A DNA stretch of 48,058 nt. It comes from Solirubrobacterales bacterium (lineage in GTDB: Bacteria > Actinomycetota > Thermoleophilia > Solirubrobacterales > Solirubrobacteraceae). Position 1 is the first letter of the stretch, and the number at the start of each line of letters is the position of its first letter. Shown here one piece after another: positions 4,551-35,682 of this stretch. The position numbers and the translations under genes were made by a program. The stretch is taken from NCBI GenBank assembly GCA_019240115.1, contig JAFAYV010000032.1:1-48058 (forward strand). The letters run 5' to 3'. The notes under the pieces are model-generated. The model did no database searches and was not told where the DNA came from. It saw nothing but the letters and a program-made list of their open reading frames with translations.

Positions 4551-5459
4551 ATGGCCTCCGTCAACGTCGAGCTGAAGGCTCGCGACGCCGACCCCAGGAC
4601 GACCGCCGCCCGCTGCCGCGCGCTCGGAGCCCGCGACCACGGCGTGCTCGAGCAGCGCGACACCTACTTCCACGGCCGCGTCGGCCGGCTCAAGCTCCGC
4701 CAGACGGCCGACGGCCCCGCCGAGCTGATCGCCTACCGCCGTCCCGACGGCGCCGAGCCCGGAGCCAGCGGGTACGTCCGCGCGCCGGCCGGCGATCCGG
4801 CGGCGCTGCGCGAGGCGCTCGTCGCCGCGCTCGGTCCCGCGATCGTCGTCGTCGACAAGCGTCGGCGGCTGTTCACCTGGGAGAGCGTGCGCATCCATCT
4901 CGACGAGGTGGAGGGGCTCGGCACGTTCGTCGAGCTCGAGTCGATCGTCGGCGGCGACGCCGGCGAGGCGCGGGCGCGGGCCGCGCTCGCCCGCCTGCGC
5001 GCCGAGCTCGCGATCGCCGACGACGCGCTCGTCGCGGTCAGCTACTGCGACCTGCTGCTCGACGCGCCCGCGGCGCTGCTCGCGGCCGCCGAGGCCGCGA
5101 TGCGCCGCGCCTACGCCCCCTACTCGCAGTTCAAGGTCGGCGCCGCCGTCCGCGGCGCCACCGGCGCGATCTACGCGGGGGCCAACGTCGAGAACGTCGC
5201 CTTCCCGCAGGGCCAGTGCGCCGAGGCCTCGGCGATCGGGGCGCTCGTGACCGCGGGCGAGTCCGCGCTCACCGAGGTCGCGGTCGTCGCCGAGCGCCTG
5301 GAGCACTGTCCGCCGTGCGGTGGGTGCCGTCAACGGCTCGTCGAGTTCGGGTCGGCGTCGACGCCCGTCCATCTCGGCCGACCCGGTGCCGCGCCGCGGA
5401 CGACGACGCTCGGCGAGCTGCTGCCGGGGTCGTTTCACCGCGCCGCGCTGCGGTCCTGA
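4551..5459 (+). CDS. CYTH domain - cytidine deaminase fusion protein
   Basis: This is a 302-residue two-domain protein. Residues 1 to about 165 are a CYTH (class IV adenylate cyclase / thiamine-triphosphatase-type) tunnel-fold domain: NVELKARD at the start, RDTYF then GRLKLR, and HLDEVEGLGTFVELE. Residues 170-302 are a zinc-dependent cytidine deaminase: YSQFKVGAAV, NVENVAFPQGQCAEASAIG (Cys-Ala-Glu with the catalytic Glu) and CPPCGGCRQ (two zinc Cys). The deaminase should convert cytidine or deoxycytidine to uridine. The role of the CYTH part is unknown; it may bind or hydrolyse a triphosphate. The ATG at 4551 is chosen because the frame upstream has no CYTH-like sequence and is antisense to upp. 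Both halves keep their signature residues, so a true fusion is more likely than a frame artefact. Confidence 0.85.
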   Translation: MASVNVELKARDADPRTTAARCRALGARDHGVLEQRDTYFHGRVGRLKLRQTADGPAELIAYRRPDGAEPGASGYVRAPAGDPAALREALVAALGPAIVVVDKRRRLFTWESVRIHLDEVEGLGTFVELESIVGGDAGEARARAALARLRAELAIADDALVAVSYCDLLLDAPAALLAAAEAAMRRAYAPYSQFKVGAAVRGATGAIYAGANVENVAFPQGQCAEASAIGALVTAGESALTEVAVVAERLEHCPPCGGCRQRLVEFGSASTPVHLGRPGAAPRTTTLGELLPGSFHRAALRS

Positions 5460-26609: not shown

Positions 26610-26653
26610 CTGTATGCAGAATGCTTGACGACTCCCCTGGTTCTGTGTACAGT
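26610..26653 (+). promoter_or_regulatory. Promoter of the catabolic operon with two candidate GntR operators
   Basis: TTGACG (26625-26630) and TACAGT (26648-26653), 17 nt apart, form a good sigma70-type promoter. CTGTATGCAG (26610-26619) lies just upstream of the -35 and CTGTGTACAG (26643-26652) overlaps the -10. Both follow CTGTnTnCAG and their centres are 33 bp apart, about three turns. FadR-subfamily GntR proteins bind short dyads of the TnGTnnnACnA kind, which these resemble. The GntR gene at 26843 is the obvious ligand. Binding here would repress by covering both promoter elements. Confidence 0.65.
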
Positions 26654-26675: not shown

Positions 26676-26852
26676 GTGCCCACGATGCTTGTTCACGACT
26701 TCATTCCGGCCTGTGCGACGACAGAGCTCACGCTCGGGGGCCACAGGTCCGCTTTGCAGTCCATTGAGATGGCTCAGGAGGGCAACCGACTTGGCCATAC
26801 CTGCACGCAGTCACGCGGTCGCCGCGGTCGATTGGCGGGGCCGTGGAGCTGA
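26676..26852 (+). CDS. Possible 58-residue leader ORF upstream of the GntR gene
   Basis: GTG at 26676 is preceded by GGAGGAGG at ideal spacing, directly behind the strong promoter. The frame runs to a TGA at 26850-26852, overlapping the GntR gene's GTG start (26843) by 10 nt. It starts VPTMLVHDFIPA and its C-terminal third is Arg/Gly-rich. No family is recognised. It may be a coupled small protein whose translation sets GntR level, or merely an untranslated leader with a fortuitous SD. Confidence 0.35.
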   Translation: MPTMLVHDFIPACATTELTLGGHRSALQSIEMAQEGNRLGHTCTQSRGRRGRLAGPWS

Positions 26853-27625
26853 GTCCGGTTGACATGTCTGCGGATGGCGGCCCCATCGGCACCGGAGCGG
26901 ATCTGGTCTACGCGCGCCTGCGTGAAGCGATCCTCCACAACCACCTCGCTCCCGGGTCGGTGGTCTCGCAGGTTCAGCTCGCCTTGCAGCTGGGCGTGAG
27001 CCGGACCCCGCTGCGCGAGGCGGTGCGCATGCTCCAGCGAGAGGGATTGGTCACCGGGGAGGCCAACCGGATGGTGCGCGTGGCTCCGTTCTCCACCGAG
27101 GACGTGGAAGAGCTCTACGCCGTGCGGATCACCAACGAGGCGTTGGCCATCCGCCTGACGGTCCCCGGGATGATCTCCGAGGACGACGCGATCCTCGAGG
27201 ACGGTCTGCGCCAGATGGCCGGCCACGCGGCCGAGCGTGATATCGATGCCTGGGAGCGGCATCACCGTGCCTTCCACGCGCACCTGGTGCGGGGCGGTGG
27301 AGCGCGGCTGTGTCGGATGCTCGCCGAGTTCTCCGATCACGCCGAGCGCTACCGCCGGCTGTATGTGACGAGCGAGCCGCGGGCGATGTCGATCGGCGCG
27401 GCCGAGCACGAGGCGATCGTGGAAGCGTGCCATGCGCGGGACGCCGCGCGCGCGGCCGCGGAGCTGGCGCGGCACCTGTCGCGCACCGCGTTGACCTCGC
27501 TGACGCAGATCGCCCCCGAGCACGAGCCGGCGATGATCCGTGGCGCGCTGCGCGCCGTGCTCGCCGGCAGCGAGGCAACCGTCACCGCCCCGGGATCAAG
27601 GAGGTCTGATCATGCCCGTCGCTGA
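26843..27625 (+). CDS. GntR family (FadR/FCD) transcriptional regulator
   Basis: The 260-residue regulator has a winged helix at about residues 20-90 (LVYARLREAILHNHLAPGS, VSRTPLREAVRMLQREGLV) followed by an all-helical FCD ligand domain. That domain contains the metal-binding type residues in HHRAFHAHLVRGGG, FSDHAERYRRL and EHEAIVEACHARD. It is first in the operon behind the promoter with two CTGTnTnCAG sites, so autoregulation and repression of the pathway until an aromatic or acid effector binds are likely. The start is GTG 26843 or ATG 26864; the latter loses seven unconserved residues. It overlaps the RibB-like gene by 14 nt. Confidence 0.92.
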   Translation: MELSPVDMSADGGPIGTGADLVYARLREAILHNHLAPGSVVSQVQLALQLGVSRTPLREAVRMLQREGLVTGEANRMVRVAPFSTEDVEELYAVRITNEALAIRLTVPGMISEDDAILEDGLRQMAGHAAERDIDAWERHHRAFHAHLVRGGGARLCRMLAEFSDHAERYRRLYVTSEPRAMSIGAAEHEAIVEACHARDAARAAAELARHLSRTALTSLTQIAPEHEPAMIRGALRAVLAGSEATVTAPGSRRSDHARR

Positions 27626-28421
27626 GTGCAGGCTCGACCGTCATCGGCTCGCGAGTCTGGTGTGGGATGGCGAGGAGGTCGGCGGTGAGAGGCGTGCCGG
27701 CCTGGCCCACCGTGCGACGCGCTGGACCCGTGACACGACGGTCGACCTGCGGGGCCTGAGCTCGACCTGGCAGGTCGACGCCGCCGAACGCAAGCTGACG
27801 GGCGCGGTCCGAGACGCGCTGGGACAGCTGCGCGATGGTGGGCTGGTGGCTCTCTACGACGACGAGCGAGACGAGGGGGATCTGATCGCCGCGGCGCGGC
27901 TGACGACTCCCGCGATCGTCAACACGATGGTCCGCCGCGCAGGAGGCTTGGTGTCGGTGGCGCTGACGCCGGAGCGGGCTGGGCAGCTGGCCCTGCAGAC
28001 GCTTCCCGTGCGCCGCAGCGGCGGACGCCGACTGTGCGAGCGGACACCGACGATGGTTTCGGTCGAAGCCCGCCGCGGGGTGTCGACCGGAATCTCGGCT
28101 GCCGACCGAGCCCGCACGATCTCGATCCTGGCCGAGCCGGCGAACCGAGCCGACGAGCTCGTCAGCCCTGGACACGTCTTCCCGCTGCTCGCCGCCGCGG
28201 GCGGGCTGCACGAGCGCTGCGGCCGATTGGAGGCGGCCGTCGATGTCATGCGTCTGGCCGGGCTGGAGCCCGCCGCGGCGATGTGCGACGTTCTCGACCG
28301 CGAGGGAGAGCTGGCAAACGGCACCGAGCTGCTCGCGGCGGCCGAGCAGCTGCAGATCCCGCTCGTCGCGATCAGCCAGATCGCCCAGACGCGCCGCGAA
28401 GAAGCATGGAGCAGGTGCTGA
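27612..28421 (+). CDS. RibB-like (DHBP synthase family) protein with altered active site
   Basis: The 269-residue protein has a ~60-residue unconserved N-terminus and then a 3,4-dihydroxy-2-butanone-4-phosphate synthase fold. Aligned by eye with E. coli RibB, GVSTGISAADRARTI, SPGHVFPLLAAAGG and EAAVDVMRLAGLEPAA are conserved. The acidic loop RENEGD reads ERDEGD (85-90). The catalytic/metal motif HTE reads RLE (205-207, His153 to Arg). The position of Cys66 is Ser115, and ELTNDDG reads DVLDREG. Normal ribulose-5-phosphate chemistry is therefore doubtful. AAGGAGG precedes its ATG, which overlaps the GntR stop. Its place beside an FMN/FAD monooxygenase and flavin reductase suggests a flavin- or substrate-related role, but it may have a new function. 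Confidence 0.8.
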   Translation: MPVAECRLDRHRLASLVWDGEEVGGERRAGLAHRATRWTRDTTVDLRGLSSTWQVDAAERKLTGAVRDALGQLRDGGLVALYDDERDEGDLIAAARLTTPAIVNTMVRRAGGLVSVALTPERAGQLALQTLPVRRSGGRRLCERTPTMVSVEARRGVSTGISAADRARTISILAEPANRADELVSPGHVFPLLAAAGGLHERCGRLEAAVDVMRLAGLEPAAAMCDVLDREGELANGTELLAAAEQLQIPLVAISQIAQTRREEAWSRC

Positions 28422-28601
28422 GATGCATACGGCTTCTCCTTCGAGAACGCGGCGGGTTTCGAGGCGTTCGCCAATCATCCGGCGCACGGCGACTTCGTCG
28501 AGCGCCACGTACACCCATACGCCGACACGGTGATCTCCGTCGACTACGACGACGTGGCGACCGCGGTGCCGGCGTCCCCCGAGCAGAGGAGTGCATCATG
28601 A
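28422..28601 (+). pseudogene. C-terminal remnant of a Dabb (stress-responsive A/B barrel) protein
   Basis: Directly after the RibB-like TGA, and in the same frame, 59 codons read as the end of a Dabb-domain protein: YGFSFENAAGFEAFANHPAH, then FVERHVHPYADTVISVDYDD. There is no start codon in the stretch, and the N-terminal half of the domain is absent. Its TGA overlaps the ATG of the monooxygenase (ATGA), as expected if an intact Dabb gene once preceded it. A deletion fusing the RibB-like end to a truncated Dabb gene is likely. A once-continuous fusion interrupted by TGA is the alternative. Confidence 0.7.
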
Positions 28602-29803
28602 CCACCACCGCGACCACCGCAGCGGTGCCCACCCTGCAGGAGCTGCTGGCCCGGATCGATGAGACGCGACCGATCCTGGAGCGCAACGTCGACCAGACCG
28701 AGGCGGAGCGTCGGATCCCGCAGGAGAACATCGACGCCTTGAGCGCCGCGGGCGCGTTCCGGGTGATGACCCCGCGTCGCTTCGGCGGCTATGAGATGAC
28801 GATCCGCGAGAAGCTCGAGGTCTCGGCGGCAGTGGCCGAATCGTGCGGGTCGACGGCCTGGGTGGTGGCCTTGACCAACGTGTGCAACTGGATGGCGGGC
28901 ACGCTTGCCGACCAAGCGCAACAGGACATCTGGGGCGCCAATCCCGACGCGAGGGTCGCCGGCGTGCTCAACCCATCCTCCGATGTCCGGAAGGTCGACG
29001 GGGGGTATGAGATCACCGGCAAATGGCCGTGGGCGTCGGGCAGCCTGCACGCCGACTGGGCCCTGGTGGGGATCGTCGTGCCCGACGAGTCCGGCCGCGA
29101 GGTCGATCAGGCGCTGGCGTTCCTGCCCAAGAGCGACTACGCCATCGAGGACACGTGGTTCGTGGCCGGGATGAAGGGCACCGGCTCGAACACGATCGTG
29201 GTCGAGAACGTGTTCGTGCCCGAGTATCGGTTGGCGTCCACCCCGCGGGCGATCGACAACGAGTACCCCACCGAGCACACCGACGAGGCGCTGTACCGCT
29301 CGTCGTTCATCCCGGTGCTGACGCTGATCCTGGCCGGGGCGCAACTCGGGCTCGGTCGCGCCGCGCTGAACTTCGTCAAGGAGAAGGCCCCCCGCCGAGG
29401 GATCAGCTACACGAAGTTCGAGCATCAGGTCGACTCCACGGCGTTCCAGCTGCAGGTCGCGCAGGCCTCGATGCTGATCGACACCGCGCACCTGCACGCG
29501 TTCCGGGCCGCCGCCGACATCGACGATGCCGCCGCCCGCGGCGAGAAGCTCACCTATGTCCAGCGAGCGCGCGTCAGGGCCGACACCGCCTACACGATCA
29601 CCAAGATCCGTGAGGCGATCGACCTGCTGCTCTCGGCCCACGGCGCTTCGAGCTTTGCGCTCATCAGCCCGCTGCAGCGGATCTGGCGCGACTCGAGCAC
29701 CGCCGGGCGACACGCGGTCGCCGACCCGCTGGTCAACCAGGAGGTCTACGGCAAGGCACTGCTTGGCATCCCCTACGAGGAGAACATCACCCCGCTGATC
29801 TGA
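28598..29803 (+). CDS. Group D flavin-dependent monooxygenase (HpaB/HsaA-like, acyl-CoA dehydrogenase fold)
   Basis: The protein has 401 residues. The acyl-CoA-dehydrogenase-like fold shows an N-terminal helical domain (RIPQENIDALSAAGAFRVMTPRRFGGYE), SCGSTAWVVALTNVCNWMAG, the middle barrel (GYEITGKWPWASGSLHADWALVG, WFVAGMKGTGSNTIVVENVFVPEY) and a C-terminal four-helix bundle ending ISPLQRIWRDSSTAGRHA. The signatures match two-component aromatic hydroxylases that use FADH2/FMNH2 and O2 to ortho-hydroxylate phenols. The partner reductase is encoded 74 nt downstream. It likely creates the catechol-type product needed by the extradiol dioxygenase later in the operon. The exact phenolic substrate is not known. 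Confidence 0.9.
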   Translation: MTTTATTAAVPTLQELLARIDETRPILERNVDQTEAERRIPQENIDALSAAGAFRVMTPRRFGGYEMTIREKLEVSAAVAESCGSTAWVVALTNVCNWMAGTLADQAQQDIWGANPDARVAGVLNPSSDVRKVDGGYEITGKWPWASGSLHADWALVGIVVPDESGREVDQALAFLPKSDYAIEDTWFVAGMKGTGSNTIVVENVFVPEYRLASTPRAIDNEYPTEHTDEALYRSSFIPVLTLILAGAQLGLGRAALNFVKEKAPRRGISYTKFEHQVDSTAFQLQVAQASMLIDTAHLHAFRAAADIDDAAARGEKLTYVQRARVRADTAYTITKIREAIDLLLSAHGASSFALISPLQRIWRDSSTAGRHAVADPLVNQEVYGKALLGIPYEENITPLI

Positions 29804-29877: not shown

Positions 29878-31023
29878 ATGACCGAATCAGCCTCGGCGCC
29901 CGGAGCCATCACACCACAGCAGTTCCGCGACGTGATCGGCCGCTTCGCGACGGGGGTCACCGTGATCACCACGAGCGATGAGCGACAGCGATACGGCACC
30001 ACCGCCAGCGCCGTGAGCTCGCTGTCGCTCGAGCCGCCGATGCTCTTGATTTGCATGAACCGGGAGTCGAGCACCGGGCAGGCGATCGCTCGGGTCGGCC
30101 GGTTTGTCGTCAACATCCTGGCCGAGGACCAGGACCATCTTGCCGTGCGGTTCGCGCGCAAGGATCCCGATAAGTTCGACGGGATCACCCTGACCCCGGG
30201 ACAGCACGGGGAGCCGTTGCTCGAGGGCGCCCTTGCCCATCTCGAGTGCCGGGTGACCGAGCAGGTGCTGGGGGGCACGCACACCGTGTACATCGGCGAA
30301 GTCGACCGCGCGTCGGGACAGGCCGGCACTCCGCTGGCGTACTTCCGTGGCCAGTTCGGTCGCCTGCAGATCCAACAGGACGAGCATGCCCACGCGGCGC
30401 TGCGCAGCGCGATCATCGACCGATCGATCGCGATCGGGGAGCCACTGCACCTGGAGGCAGTCGCACAGCGACTCGGCGTGTCGGACCGCTCGGTCCAGCA
30501 GGGTCTCGTCCGGTTGTGCGATGAGGGCCTGGTGTCCCAGCAGGACGATGGCTCGTTCCTCGTCGTGCCGCTGACTTTCGAGACGATCGAGGATGCGTTC
30601 CGAGCGCGCACGTCGCTGCAGCTCGGGGCGGCGGTGATGACGGTGGGAGGACTGAACGCCGAGCAGCTCACCTCGCTGCGCCGCGAGATGGAGAAGACGC
30701 TGCCGGTTCGCGGCGATGGCACGCGGATGAGTCCCGATGAGTGGTTCGAGGCGAACGCGGCCTTCCATGAGCACATGCTTCGCGCGGCCGGTAGCCAGGT
30801 GCTGATCGCGGCACACCGGCGCTTGACCGTGCCCGGCCTGATGACCCGCGCGCTTGGACCTGACGACGAGCTCGGCGACGACGTCGCGACCGACCACGTC
30901 AGGATCGTCGAGGCCTATGAGGCCGGCGATCTGACCGCGGCGTGCGAGGCGATCCGAAGCGACAACGAGCGGGGCATCGACCTGCACCGCGAGCGCATGC
31001 GGCGTGCCGGAGGGCTCGTATGA
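29878..31023 (+). CDS. Flavin reductase fused to a complete GntR/FCD regulator
   Basis: The 381-residue protein has two parts. Residues ~15-165 are a HpaC/HsaB-type flavin reductase: FRDVIGRFATGVTVITT, GTTASAVSSLSLEPPMLLICMN, GRFVVNILAEDQ, and HTVYIGEVDRA. Residues ~172-381 are a full GntR regulator, with a winged helix LEAVAQRLGVSDRSVQQGLVRLCDEGLV and an FCD domain (FEANAAFHEHMLRAAGS, DHVRIVEAYEAGDLTAACEAI) with its metal-type His/Asp. It would supply reduced flavin to the upstream monooxygenase. By analogy with the Acinetobacter HPA hydroxylase reductase, whose C-terminal MarR-like domain senses substrate, the FCD part may gate reductase activity or bind DNA. The frame is continuous with no indel sign. 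Confidence 0.88.
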   Translation: MTESASAPGAITPQQFRDVIGRFATGVTVITTSDERQRYGTTASAVSSLSLEPPMLLICMNRESSTGQAIARVGRFVVNILAEDQDHLAVRFARKDPDKFDGITLTPGQHGEPLLEGALAHLECRVTEQVLGGTHTVYIGEVDRASGQAGTPLAYFRGQFGRLQIQQDEHAHAALRSAIIDRSIAIGEPLHLEAVAQRLGVSDRSVQQGLVRLCDEGLVSQQDDGSFLVVPLTFETIEDAFRARTSLQLGAAVMTVGGLNAEQLTSLRREMEKTLPVRGDGTRMSPDEWFEANAAFHEHMLRAAGSQVLIAAHRRLTVPGLMTRALGPDDELGDDVATDHVRIVEAYEAGDLTAACEAIRSDNERGIDLHRERMRRAGGLV

Positions 31024-31051: not shown

Positions 31052-31966
31052 ATGAGACTGGTGAGCTTCAGCGCCGACGACGCTGGCCCGCGGCGCTCAG
31101 GGTTGGTGACGGCGGCTGGGATCGCCGACGTCGAGGCCATCGCGTCCGTGGCCGGACTCGACGGCGCGGGCCGCGACGCCTTGACGAGCACGCGCCAGCT
31201 GCTCGCCCTCCCGGCCACGGACCTCGCTGAGCTGGCGCAGGCCGCGGAAGGCCACGCGGCGCAGCTGCGTGAGCGTGGTGCGCTTCACGATCCCGGCGAG
31301 GTCCGCCTCGGCCCGCCGGTCCCCGACCCGCAGAAGATCATCTGCCTGGGCCTGAACTATCGCGACCACGCCCGCGAGGCGGGTCTGAGCGAGCCGGCGG
31401 CGCCGATGTTCTTCGCCAAGTTCGCCAACTCGCTGATCGGCCCCACCGACCCGATCGTGCCGCCTCGGGATGGCGCTGCGCAGGTGGACTACGAAGCCGA
31501 ACTGGCCGTCGTGATCGCCGCCCGCGCACGCAACGTCGAGGCTGCCGGCGCGCTGGAGCATGTGGCGGGAGCGATGGCGTTCAACGACGTCAGTGCGCGC
31601 GATCTGCAGATGGCCAACAGTCTGTGGACCGGCGGCAAGGCGATCGACACCTTCGGGCCCTGCGGGCCGGCGCTGGTGACGATCGACGAGATCCCCGACC
31701 TGCAGGCGCTGCGCGTCCGCACGCGCGTCAACGGCGAGACCGTCCAGGACGGCAACACCGCCGAGATGATCTTCAGCGTCGCGGAGACGATCGCGTTCCT
31801 GTCGCGGATCATGACGCTCGAGCCCGGCGACATCATCGCGACGGGGACGCCGGCGGGGATCGGCAACGCCCGAGACCCGAAGCTGTTCCTGAACGCCGGC
31901 GACGTCGTCGAGGTCGAGCTCGAGGACGTCGGCACCCTGCGCAACCCCGTCACCGCGGCGGCCTGA
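31052..31966 (+). CDS. Fumarylacetoacetate hydrolase (FAH) family protein
   Basis: The protein has 304 residues. The N-terminal part is variable; the FAH core begins at KIICLGLNYRDHAREAG and carries the metal-binding acids in DYEAELAVVI, NDVSARDLQ, GGKAIDTFGPCGPALV and ATGTPAGIG. The family covers 2-oxohept-3-ene-1,7-dioate isomerase/hydratases, acylpyruvate hydrolases and oxaloacetate decarboxylases. After extradiol cleavage it would hydrolyse or tautomerise the ring-opened product. ATG at 31052 is preferred over an in-frame upstream start because MRLVSFS is the usual family start. The upstream ribosome site GAGGAG is about 11 nt away. Confidence 0.92.
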   Translation: MRLVSFSADDAGPRRSGLVTAAGIADVEAIASVAGLDGAGRDALTSTRQLLALPATDLAELAQAAEGHAAQLRERGALHDPGEVRLGPPVPDPQKIICLGLNYRDHAREAGLSEPAAPMFFAKFANSLIGPTDPIVPPRDGAAQVDYEAELAVVIAARARNVEAAGALEHVAGAMAFNDVSARDLQMANSLWTGGKAIDTFGPCGPALVTIDEIPDLQALRVRTRVNGETVQDGNTAEMIFSVAETIAFLSRIMTLEPGDIIATGTPAGIGNARDPKLFLNAGDVVEVELEDVGTLRNPVTAAA

Positions 31967-31991: not shown

Positions 31992-32600
31992 ATGTCCACA
32001 ACGAGCACCCCCAACCCGACGCTGCATCACGTCAACTTCAAGACGACGCGCATGCAGGAGATGATCGACTGGTACGGCGTGGTGATCGGCCTTGAGGTCA
32101 CCCACCAGTTCGAGGGCGGGGCGTGGCTGTCCAACGATGCCGCCAACCACCGCATCGCGCTGCTGACCGGCCCCGGCGTCGAGGACGATTCCGAGAAGAT
32201 CAAGCACGCCGGGCTGCACCACACCGCCTACGAGTACCCGTCGATGGACGACCTGCTCGACACCTACGTGCGCCTCAAGCAGCACGGCATCGTCCCACAC
32301 GCCTGCCTGGACCACGGGATGACGATGTCCTTCTACTACGTCGACCCGGACGAGAACTCGGTCGAGCTGCAATGCGACGAGTTCGGCGACTGGAGCCAGT
32401 CCAAGCAGTGGATGCGCACGTCATCGCAGTTCGCGGCCAACCCGATCGGCGTCAGCCTCGACCCCGACAAGGTGGTCGCCGCACGCGATGCCGACGCGAC
32501 GCCGCAGGACCTGCACCGACGCGCGTATGAGGGCGAGTTCTCGCCGGCGACCCCGCTTGACCTGCGGCTGCCGGTGGCGGCCGGCGATGAGGCCGTCTAG
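31992..32600 (+). CDS. VOC-family extradiol (2,3-dihydroxybiphenyl / catechol type) ring-cleavage dioxygenase
   Basis: The 202-residue protein has a compact single-domain vicinal-oxygen-chelate layout. Probable Fe(II) ligands are His13 (TLHHVNF), His76 or 77 (GLHHTAYEY) and Glu125 (NSVELQCDE). A catalytic His/Tyr pair may be His108 and Tyr115/116 (DHGMTMSFYYVDPDEN). The ~50-residue C-terminal tail is acidic and unconserved. It should open a catechol made by the operon's hydroxylase(s). GAGGAGAGC precedes ATG at good spacing, 25 nt after the FAH gene. The preferred ring substituent cannot be inferred. Confidence 0.9.
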   Translation: MSTTSTPNPTLHHVNFKTTRMQEMIDWYGVVIGLEVTHQFEGGAWLSNDAANHRIALLTGPGVEDDSEKIKHAGLHHTAYEYPSMDDLLDTYVRLKQHGIVPHACLDHGMTMSFYYVDPDENSVELQCDEFGDWSQSKQWMRTSSQFAANPIGVSLDPDKVVAARDADATPQDLHRRAYEGEFSPATPLDLRLPVAAGDEAV

Positions 32601-32656
32601 GAAGCATCGGTGACGCTCGATGACGTCCCGGGCTGCTGGTGGAGGCCGGGGTTCCG

Positions 32657-33637
32657 ATGAGTACGCACGGCCACGACGCGCTGCTGATCGACGTGCATTC
32701 GCACTTCGTCACCGACGGATACGTTGAGGCGGCCAAGGCCGCCGGGCACACCCATCCCGACGGCATGCCCGGCTACCCCGCCTGGGATGCGGAACGTCAC
32801 CTTGCGCTGATGGATCAGTGGGGAGTCCGGACGTCGGTGCTGTCGATCTCCTCCCCCGGCGTGCACTTCGGCGATGACCAGGCGGCTCGTGCGCTGGCAC
32901 GGGAGGTCAACGAGTTCGGGGCGCGGATCGCTCGGGGGCATCGCGGACGCTTCGGCCATTTCGCGTCGCTGCCGCTGCCCGACGTCGCCGGCTCGATCGA
33001 GGAGGCCGGCTATGCGCTGGAGGAGCTGGGCAGCCGGGGGCTGGCGATCGAGACCAATGCCGAGGGCAGCTATCTCGGCGACGAGCGCTACGAGCCGCTG
33101 TGGACCGAACTCGATGCCCGCCGGGCCGTCGTGTTCGTGCACCCGACATCTCCATGCTGCTGGGAGGCGGTGTCGCTGGGGCGGCCCCGCCCGATGCTCG
33201 AGTTCATCTTCGATTCCACCCGGACCGTCAGCGATCTGGTGTTCAGCGGGGTGCTCAGACGCCATCCCGACATCGAGTGGATCTTCACCCACGGTGGAGG
33301 CACGCTGCCGCTGCTCGCTGACCGCATCGAGCTGTTCCGGTCCGTGTTCATGGCCGCCGATCCCGATGAGCCCAGCGCGCCCGAGCAGATCCGCCGGCTG
33401 TGGTTCGACATGGCCGGCACGCCGTTTCCCAACCAGATCCCGGCGCTGGTCAAGGCGTTCGGCGCAGAGCGCCTGCTGTATGGCAGCGACTACTGCTGGA
33501 CGCCGGACGCCGGCACCACGGCCCAGGTCAAGTCAGTCGACGATGCCCCGCAGCCCGCGGGCGATACCTGGCGTGAGCTGACCACTCGGAACGCGCTGAG
33601 GCTCCTACCGGGTCTCGATCGCCCACACGCCGGCTAG
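32657..33637 (+). CDS. Amidohydrolase-2 family protein (ACMSD-like decarboxylase/hydrolase)
   Basis: The protein has 326 residues. Metal-ligand motifs are DVHSH (HxH), FVHPTSPCC, FTHGGGTLPLLADR and the Asp in LYGSDYCW; this is the full ACMSD set. Members decarboxylate substituted benzoates and muconate semialdehydes, or hydrolyse ring-cleavage products. The ATG at 32657 is chosen since conserved sequence starts at DALLIDVHSH. It is the first of three tandem but clearly different family members in the operon. It has the HxH start, whereas the next two have ExH. Confidence 0.9.
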   Translation: MSTHGHDALLIDVHSHFVTDGYVEAAKAAGHTHPDGMPGYPAWDAERHLALMDQWGVRTSVLSISSPGVHFGDDQAARALAREVNEFGARIARGHRGRFGHFASLPLPDVAGSIEEAGYALEELGSRGLAIETNAEGSYLGDERYEPLWTELDARRAVVFVHPTSPCCWEAVSLGRPRPMLEFIFDSTRTVSDLVFSGVLRRHPDIEWIFTHGGGTLPLLADRIELFRSVFMAADPDEPSAPEQIRRLWFDMAGTPFPNQIPALVKAFGAERLLYGSDYCWTPDAGTTAQVKSVDDAPQPAGDTWRELTTRNALRLLPGLDRPHAG

Positions 33638-33662
33638 TGGCCACAGCGAGGGAGGGACGCAG

Positions 33663-34610
33663 ATGAGGATGATCGCCCTGGAGGAGCACTTCCTCCCGCA
33701 GGATGTCGCAACCGCTGCCGGTATCGATCCCGCCAGCGTGTGGGGTCTGTTCGACGCGCTGGGCGACACCGGCGACAAGCGACTGGAGGTGATGGACAAG
33801 GCGGGAATCGACGTCCAGATCCTGTCGGTGCCCAATGCGGGCATCCAGAAGCTCGGCGCCGAGAGGGCCACAGCGCTGTCGCGTGAGCTCAACGACCGGA
33901 TGGCGGCCGTCATCGCCGCCCACCCCGGGCGCTTCCGGGCCTTCGCGTCGCTGCCCATGTGCGCCCCGGACGCGGCCGCCGATGAACTCGCGCGGGCCGT
34001 ACAGGAGCTCGGATTCGTCGGCGTGCTGGTCGCCGGTCAGACCAACGGCGCGTTCCTCGACGATCCCTCGATGCGACCCGTGCTTCAGGCGGCCGAACGT
34101 CTGGACGTGCCCGTCTACCTGCATCCGGCGGCCCCACCGCAAACGGTGTTCGACGCCTACTTCTCCGGTCTTGACCCAGGTGTCGCGGCACGGCTGTCGA
34201 CCTCGGGCTGGGGCTGGCATGTTGAAACCGGCATGCACGTCCTGCGGATGGCCGCCACCGGGACCTTCGAGCGCTTCCCCGGCCTGCAGGTCATCGTCGG
34301 ACACATGGGGGAGAACCTGCCCTTCTCGCTGGCCCGCGCTGACGAACAGCTGGGTCCAGTCGTCAACCTCTCGACCTCCGTGGCCGAAACCCTGCAACAG
34401 CACCTCTGGATCACCACCTGCGGATACACGACCACCCCCCCGCTGCTGTGCGCGCTGACCGTCTTTGGCGCCGACCGGATGATGTTCTCGGTCGACTACC
34501 CATTCTCCGACGGCAACGAGGCCACCGAGTTCCTCACCGACGCCCCGCTGGGACCCGGCGACCGGGCACGGATCGCCCACCTCAACGCCGAAGCGCTGCT
34601 GAAGATATGA
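33663..34610 (+). CDS. Amidohydrolase-2 family decarboxylase, gamma-resorcylate decarboxylase-like
   Basis: The protein has 315 residues. The start MRMIALEEHFL places Glu7 and His9 as the ExH metal pair, as in gamma-resorcylate/2,3-dihydroxybenzoate decarboxylases. Later ligands are seen in VYLHPAAP, VGHMGENLPF and VDYPFS. It probably removes a carboxylate ortho to a phenolic hydroxyl, non-oxidatively and reversibly. GAGGGAGGG lies before its ATG. It is about as similar to the third paralogue as motifs can show, suggesting a tandem duplication that has diverged, or different substrates or subunits. Confidence 0.88.
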   Translation: MRMIALEEHFLPQDVATAAGIDPASVWGLFDALGDTGDKRLEVMDKAGIDVQILSVPNAGIQKLGAERATALSRELNDRMAAVIAAHPGRFRAFASLPMCAPDAAADELARAVQELGFVGVLVAGQTNGAFLDDPSMRPVLQAAERLDVPVYLHPAAPPQTVFDAYFSGLDPGVAARLSTSGWGWHVETGMHVLRMAATGTFERFPGLQVIVGHMGENLPFSLARADEQLGPVVNLSTSVAETLQQHLWITTCGYTTTPPLLCALTVFGADRMMFSVDYPFSDGNEATEFLTDAPLGPGDRARIAHLNAEALLKI

Positions 34611-34656
34611 GCGGCAAGGCAACGTCTCAAGACCCGACGACTGGAGGGGAGCTCGC

Positions 34657-35682
34657 ATGCAGGGAAAGATCGCGATCGAGGAGCATTTCGTGACTGCGGG
34701 GCTCGAGCACACGCTGTTTCCGACGATCGGATGGGATCCGGACGAGTGGGCTGACGTGCAGCGCCGCCTTGGTGAGGCGGGCTCGCTCCGCCTGGAGGAG
34801 ATGGACCGCCACGGGGTCGAGATCGCGGTCCTCTCGCTCGCCGCGCCGTGCATCCAGCTGATCGCCGACCCATACGAAGCGGTCGTTCAGGCCCGGGCGT
34901 CGAACGACGCCCTGGCCGGCGTCGTCGAGTCCCATCCGGATCGGTTCGCCGGCTTCGCGGCGCTGCCGATGCAGGACCCGAAGGCGGCCGCGAACGAGCT
35001 CGCGCGCTCGGTCGAGGAGCTCGGCTTCAGGGGCGCGCTCGTCAACGGCTACAGCAACCTCGGCGACGGGATCGCCTACTACGACGAGCCGCAGTTCCTG
35101 CCGGTGTGGGAGCGGCTCGCCGAGCTCGGCGTACCGCTGTACCTCCATCCCCGCAACCCGTGGGAGAGCCAGATGCGGATCTATGAGGATCGCGGCGAAC
35201 TGCTCGGACCGGCGTGGGCGTTTGCGGTCGAGACGGCCACCCACGCCCTGCGCCTGATCACGAGCGGGCTGTTCGATCGATTCCCGGACCTCACCGTGAT
35301 CCTCGGACACCTCGGCGAGATGCTCCCGTTCGCCGTCGATCGTCTGCAGCAGCGCCTCTCGCACGTGCCCGCGTTCAGCCTGCAGCGATCCGCCCCCGCC
35401 TACCTGCGGGAGAACTTCTACGTCACCACCAGCGGGAACTTCCACACCCAGTCGCTGATCGGCGCGCTGCTGCAGGTCGGCGCTGACCGGATCATGTTCG
35501 CCGTCGACTATCCGTTCGAGAGCCACGCGGACGCGGCGGCCTGGTTCGACACGGTGGCGATCAGCGAGCCCGACCGGCTGAAGATCGGGCGCACGAACGC
35601 GCAGCGGCTGCTCGGGCTGAGTCCGACCGAGACCACCGGCGACATGCGCGCCCGCGCTGCCGCTCCGGGATCGATGCGCTGA
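34657..35682 (+). CDS. Amidohydrolase-2 family decarboxylase, gamma-resorcylate decarboxylase-like (third paralogue)
   Basis: The protein has 341 residues. It starts MQGKIAIEEHF, nearly the textbook N-terminus of gamma-resorcylate decarboxylase, with Glu/His of the ExH motif at 9 and 11. Further metal ligands lie in LYLHPRNPWES, LGHLGEMLPF and AVDYPFES, and an Arg-rich end. It has a longer C-terminus than the second paralogue. It is expected to decarboxylate a hydroxybenzoate-like acid. The TGA overlaps the ATG of the MhpA-like gene (TGATG), so it is translationally coupled to it. Confidence 0.9.
   Translation: MQGKIAIEEHFVTAGLEHTLFPTIGWDPDEWADVQRRLGEAGSLRLEEMDRHGVEIAVLSLAAPCIQLIADPYEAVVQARASNDALAGVVESHPDRFAGFAALPMQDPKAAANELARSVEELGFRGALVNGYSNLGDGIAYYDEPQFLPVWERLAELGVPLYLHPRNPWESQMRIYEDRGELLGPAWAFAVETATHALRLITSGLFDRFPDLTVILGHLGEMLPFAVDRLQQRLSHVPAFSLQRSAPAYLRENFYVTTSGNFHTQSLIGALLQVGADRIMFAVDYPFESHADAAAWFDTVAISEPDRLKIGRTNAQRLLGLSPTETTGDMRARAAAPGSMR

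Follow-up and report, generated by a model that had tools for sequence, protein, structure and literature searches.

In C1-HPAH of Acinetobacter baumannii (PDB 5zc2 and 5zyr), a flavin reductase carries a C-terminal MarR domain, and binding of the ligand 4-hydroxyphenylacetate to this domain relieves self-inhibition. Being switched on by substrate, the enzyme is treated as an exception among flavin reductases (PMC10816480). Helix-turn-helix tails are also mentioned for the reductases of 4-chlorophenol, 4-fluorophenol and 4-nitrophenol monooxygenases, with substrate recognition as a guess at their role (PMC6205950). Because such tails are in print, the reductase with a GntR-FCD tail described here, P0001, is not unprecedented. 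Two further systems are close to it. CphB, the 4-chlorophenol monooxygenase reductase of Pseudarthrobacter chlorophenolicus A6, consists of a flavin reductase and a winged helix in 259 residues, and has an HpaB-type partner but no FCD domain; its identification with the pACHL02 gene is our inference from the position of that gene in the cluster. HsaB, of the actinobacterial two-component steroid monooxygenase HsaB/HsaA, lacks a regulator tail, its profile being 186 positions long.

P0001 is encoded on the forward strand at 29878..31023 of the window, which is the whole 48,058-nucleotide stretch of Solirubrobacterales DNA that was analyzed. The reading frame runs uninterrupted over 381 codons, from the ATG at 29878 to the stop codon at 31021-31023. 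Three domains follow one another on it, each above its Pfam gathering score. Residues 21-163 (29938..30366) match Flavin_Reduct (PF01613; E = 1.8e-44), and the 152 bits, against a cut-off of 27, place the domain in the short-chain flavin reductase family. Residues 169-229 (30382..30564) form a degenerate GntR winged helix (4.1e-8; 33.2 bits with a cut-off of 27), and residues 239-361 (30592..30960) form an FCD ligand domain (1.1e-12). A winged helix followed by FCD is the domain composition of FCD-type GntR transcription factors. The continuous 381-residue frame of the preliminary description is thus borne out by the open frame, the Pfam matches and the homologues.

An AlphaFold2 model of the single chain, built on an alignment of 25 sequences, has all three domains folded with a mean pLDDT of 86. 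Since its pTM is 0.54, the placement of the domains relative to one another is of low confidence and their mutual arrangement is unreliable. In model comparisons, residues 24-162 match solved flavin reductases with Z of about 22 (22.4 for the C1-HPAH reductase 5zc2, 22.9 for CtcQ), and residues 168-376 align with the FCD regulator TM0439 as a whole (Z of 19.4 over 199 residues). These latter residues therefore contain the whole fold of the FadR/VanR group of FCD-type GntR regulators (TM0439, Atu1419 VanR, PmiR), from which P0001 differs in being fused to an enzyme and in lacking the DNA-contact residues and the positive charge.

P0001 shares with C1-HPAH the reductase family (35% identity), a C-terminal winged-helix regulator domain and a group D oxygenase, the one in Acinetobacter being related to the neighbor of P0001. 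The tails differ, as that of C1-HPAH is MarR without FCD and that of P0001 is GntR with FCD. MarR_2 scores 17.2 bits on P0001, under its cut-off of 27, and the C1-HPAH reductase model NF045919 scores 112.7 bits against 340, covering profile positions 5-156 of 309. Because the domain families differ, the two tails would have separate origins. The proposed analogy with the Acinetobacter enzyme as an independently built counterpart is accordingly supported, all the more as the P0001 tail has its own single origin in an FCD subfamily (see below). P0001 resembles CphB in combining a flavin reductase with a winged helix of the same clade, but it has a full FCD domain in place of a short FCD-less tail. 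HsaB and HsaA are the best NCBIfam models for the P0001 reductase and the oxygenase upstream of it, although 142.3 bits for HsaB (NF045630) is below the equivalog cut-off of 230.

The operon, all on the forward strand where assigned, has upstream of P0001 a separate GntR/FCD regulator (26843..27625; Pfam GntR 53.8 bits, FCD 59.9 bits), so that the earlier claim of an operon with its own GntR holds. In the alignment, this regulator has the canonical recognition helix SRTPLREA. A RibB-like DHBP synthase of riboflavin synthesis follows (27612..28421; Pfam DHBP_synthase 1.7e-52), then the partner oxygenase of acyl-CoA dehydrogenase fold (28595..29803), which is HsaA/C2-HPAH-like by NCBIfam with both scores under the cut-off (302 bits for HsaA, cut-off 450; 239 bits for C2-HPAH). 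Downstream of P0001 are an HpaG-like FAH-family hydrolase (31052..31966; Pfam FAA_hydrolase 6.8e-76), a VOC/extradiol dioxygenase-like protein (31992..32600; Pfam Glyoxalase 1.4e-12), three consecutive Amidohydro_2 genes (32639-35679) and an MhpA-like hydroxylase. L154, a relative of the same family, has the order GntR, RibB, oxygenase, fusion, a trace of FAH, and VOC, with the RibB-like gene in the equivalent position, and L155 retains oxygenase, fusion, FAH and VOC. Incidentally, an FAD synthetase/FMN adenylyltransferase is found at reductase loci, fused or CphB-type, of Dietzia (L028) and Arthrobacter YC-RL1 (L030), and flavin supply genes seem to travel with such reductases.

The motif CTGTnTnCAG occurs only twice in the whole window, as CTGTATGCAG (26610..26619) and CTGTGTACAG (26643..26652), 33 bp apart and both in the promoter of the separate GntR, for which they are candidate operators. 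The second palindrome overlaps a possible -10 element. Similar copies lie at 4712, 4787 and 4808 of L154, upstream of the orthologous GntR, and none was found in L155. These sites had been suggested as targets of the fused protein; from their position and recurrence at the L154 orthologue, we reassign them to the separate GntR.

The three-domain fusion is present at at least about 25 other sampled loci, mostly in Actinomycetota with two in Bacillota. The suggested search for the same domain order across actinobacteria found it in the class, in the phylum, in named species and on plasmids. In the class survey of 399 genomes, where fusion counts are lower bounds, full-length fusions were found in at least six genomes, one of them with two; other genomes of the class have a free reductase only, up to 65% identical to the P0001 reductase. 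The phylum survey added at least three genomes. Among the matches listed, carriers include Brevibacillus, Pseudogracilibacillus, Herbiconiux, Arthrobacter, Paeniglutamicibacter, Glutamicibacter, Leucobacter, Microbacterium, Nocardioides and a Mycobacteriaceae bin, with Dietzia lutea from the plasmid search; none was found in the viral contigs searched.

Fused reductases often adjoin a flavin-dependent oxygenase, of one of three kinds. The HsaA type is found in the window operon, L154 and L155, the HpaB type at L036, L037, L040, L042, L043, L047, L156, L160 and L161, and a luciferase-like oxygenase at L041. The HpaB type also stands beside the CphB-type reductases (L029/L030). At several fusion loci, no neighboring oxygenase was recognized by the searches made.

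The tail tree unites all 26 fused FCD tails in a single clade (SH-aLRT 100), whose sister is a group of free-standing FCD regulators from the same class of bacteria (L176-L191, here SA2). The CphB-type reductase from the chlorophenol cluster has its winged helix inside the fused clade (SH-aLRT 99); this reductase either lost its FCD domain or never had one. On the other hand, the reductase-domain tree does not group the fused proteins in one clade, as it has nine label changes between fused and unfused, at least three of them forced by strong branches. As the tails form a single clade in their own tree, this mixture is most simply explained by one fusion followed by several tail losses, and repeated domain exchange may also account for it.

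A second natural variant, seen in two species, Nocardioides carbamazepini (L058) and Aeromicrobium Leaf350 (L074), has a reductase that ends with its catalytic domain; roughly 90-100 bases farther along comes a separate gene for FCD without a winged helix. At L058, a luciferase-like monooxygenase adjoins this pair. Between the two species, dN/dS is 0.07-0.08 for both the reductase and the FCD-only gene, indicating purifying selection. Without a winged helix, the FCD-only protein has no DNA-binding domain of its own to act through, and could act through some other partner. Unfused close relatives, with reductase domains 60-65% identical to P0001, evidently work, and the CphB type keeps the winged helix without FCD; FCD is thus dispensable in some pathways.

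The SA2 regulators have a near-invariant helix-turn-helix, ELGVSRSPVHHALTRLVSEGLL, and a wing that ends in RRGY, apparently a DNA-binding surface in working order. We took the positions invariant in SA2 as reference columns for retention, and assigned the positions that touch DNA from what is established for FadR-type regulators. In the recognition helix of the fused proteins, S202 is retained in 12%, R203 in 23% and P205 in 0%, and the wing arginines R224 and R225 in 0% and 8%. The winged-helix core is kept (L213 100%, L218 92%, P231 96%), so that among the SA2-invariant columns of the winged helix only DNA-facing positions stand out as lost. P0001 itself has SDRSVQQ in place of SRTPxRE, and the RR of the wing is gone; intact contact residues and the basic recognition surface of FCD-type GntR factors are both absent from it. 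Among 35 further free-standing regulators, the recognition helix shows S in 33, P in 32, R in all 35 and E in 31 at the respective columns.

Charge changes as well. The mean net charge over residues 168-231 is -3.3 in the fused proteins versus +4.0 in SA2 (range +2 to +7), with -5 in P0001 and a mean of +1.4 in other GntR regulators; the difference over the helix-turn-helix and wing has p = 5e-10 by a statistic that ignores relatedness of the rows. Thus, the fused tail appears to bind DNA no longer, and such a tail is probably a small-molecule sensor that switches the reductase itself. R207 of the recognition helix was dropped as a hallmark of the fusion, because it is already H in the SA2 sisters and its loss predates the fusion; the losses of S202, R203, P205 and the wing arginines are fusion-specific. 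A lower conservation of the winged helix as a whole than of FCD was likewise unsupported (mean retention 0.39 and 0.44 versus 0.37).

Sequence comparison shows the fusion and its conservation, a single tail origin, a lost DNA face and pairing with oxygenases. On this basis, we give a probability of roughly 60% to P0001 being a reductase with a captured FCD sensor that gates the supply of reduced flavin to an aromatic hydroxylase. P0001 would be the reductase half of an aromatic hydroxylase of the two-component, flavin-dependent kind. Its N-terminal domain would reduce flavin with NAD(P)H and so supply the oxygenase whose gene lies immediately upstream. The C-terminal part would be a captured FCD-family transcription factor that has lost DNA binding and is retained as a sensor. 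We infer that the FCD domain binds a ligand (substrate, product or another organic acid or phenol of the pathway), whose presence would be relayed by the degenerate winged helix to the reductase, releasing it from inhibition or activating it. Reduced flavin, and the peroxide it can form, would then be produced only with substrate present; without substrate, no NADH would be burnt and no peroxide formed. Transcription of the operon would be left to the separate GntR at 26843. Putative ligand gating of the reductase, on the pattern of Acinetobacter C1-HPAH, is the best explanation.

The main rival, which we consider rather unlikely, is that the tail senses nothing and serves in dimerization, stability or docking, as a tether to the oxygenase or a means to the right oligomer. 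In known FadR/VanR-type regulators, the helical FCD domains contribute to dimerization, and the separate FCD gene of L058 and L074 could encode a docking subunit. The metal-ligand columns of the fused FCD, which are N293, H297, H340 and D362 in P0001 at the positions usual in relatives, are partly eroded: H340 is retained in 54% of the fused family and H362 in 69%, with D at 362 in P0001. However, the N293/H297 pair is retained in 92% of fused proteins, the FCD core is folded in the model, and the FCD-only gene is constrained as strongly as the reductase. A single conserved docking surface is also less natural because the partner oxygenases differ in fold.

A bifunctional enzyme-regulator, in which the reductase can still bind DNA and, depending on the state of flavin or substrate, acts as repressor or activator of the operon that encodes it, is far less probable than a docking tail. 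The GntR domain still scores over its Pfam cut-off, and the tail shares its fold with FCD regulators that bind DNA, TM0439 among them, but the five contact residues are lost, the winged helix is acidic, and the candidate operators lie only at the promoter of the separate GntR, where they are conserved. With the DNA face lost and two species having the FCD gene without a winged helix, a DNA-binding role is unlikely, and the idea of a DNA-binding reductase in the preliminary description is disfavored. Finally, an assembly or frameshift artefact, or a functionless one-off gene fusion, deserves almost no weight: the unusual domain order is all that was found in its favor, and stop-free homologues of the same domain order across many species, at 43-54% full-length identity within the class, exclude the frameshift that had been named as a refutation, while dN/dS between L043 and L047 is far below 1 in the reductase, winged-helix and FCD domains alike.

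Extending the gated-reductase reading from P0001 to its relatives, we consider it about an even bet that they form a widespread and so far undescribed class of flavin reductases under allosteric control. A complete FCD transcription factor, captured once, would have given up DNA binding to serve as a ligand switch, and the class would serve three unrelated oxygenase families. Variants would have arisen where FCD was lost (CphB type), where it split off as a free subunit with no winged helix (Nocardioides, Aeromicrobium) or where the whole tail disappeared. In the open-access literature, nothing was found on the GntR-FCD fusion, its single origin, the lost DNA binding or the split form. If the reading is true, putting the supply of reduced flavin under a captured ligand sensor arose on at least two occasions and is a common feature of aromatic catabolism in actinobacteria. 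The FCD-less, split-FCD and tail-less natural versions offer ready material for working out how a transcription factor turns into a switch on an enzyme.

In genome G384, the HsaA-type oxygenase with fused reductase (L154) exists in parallel with a second system (L167), in which a similar oxygenase goes with an unfused reductase and a GntR of its own lies close by. At 8047-9350 of L169 and 7596-8932 of L170, the reductase is likewise unfused, and GntR is encoded next to it on the opposite strand. Incidentally, the reductase of L090, titled a Klebsiella pneumoniae MAG, groups with an alphaproteobacterial one, and this bin is probably misnamed.
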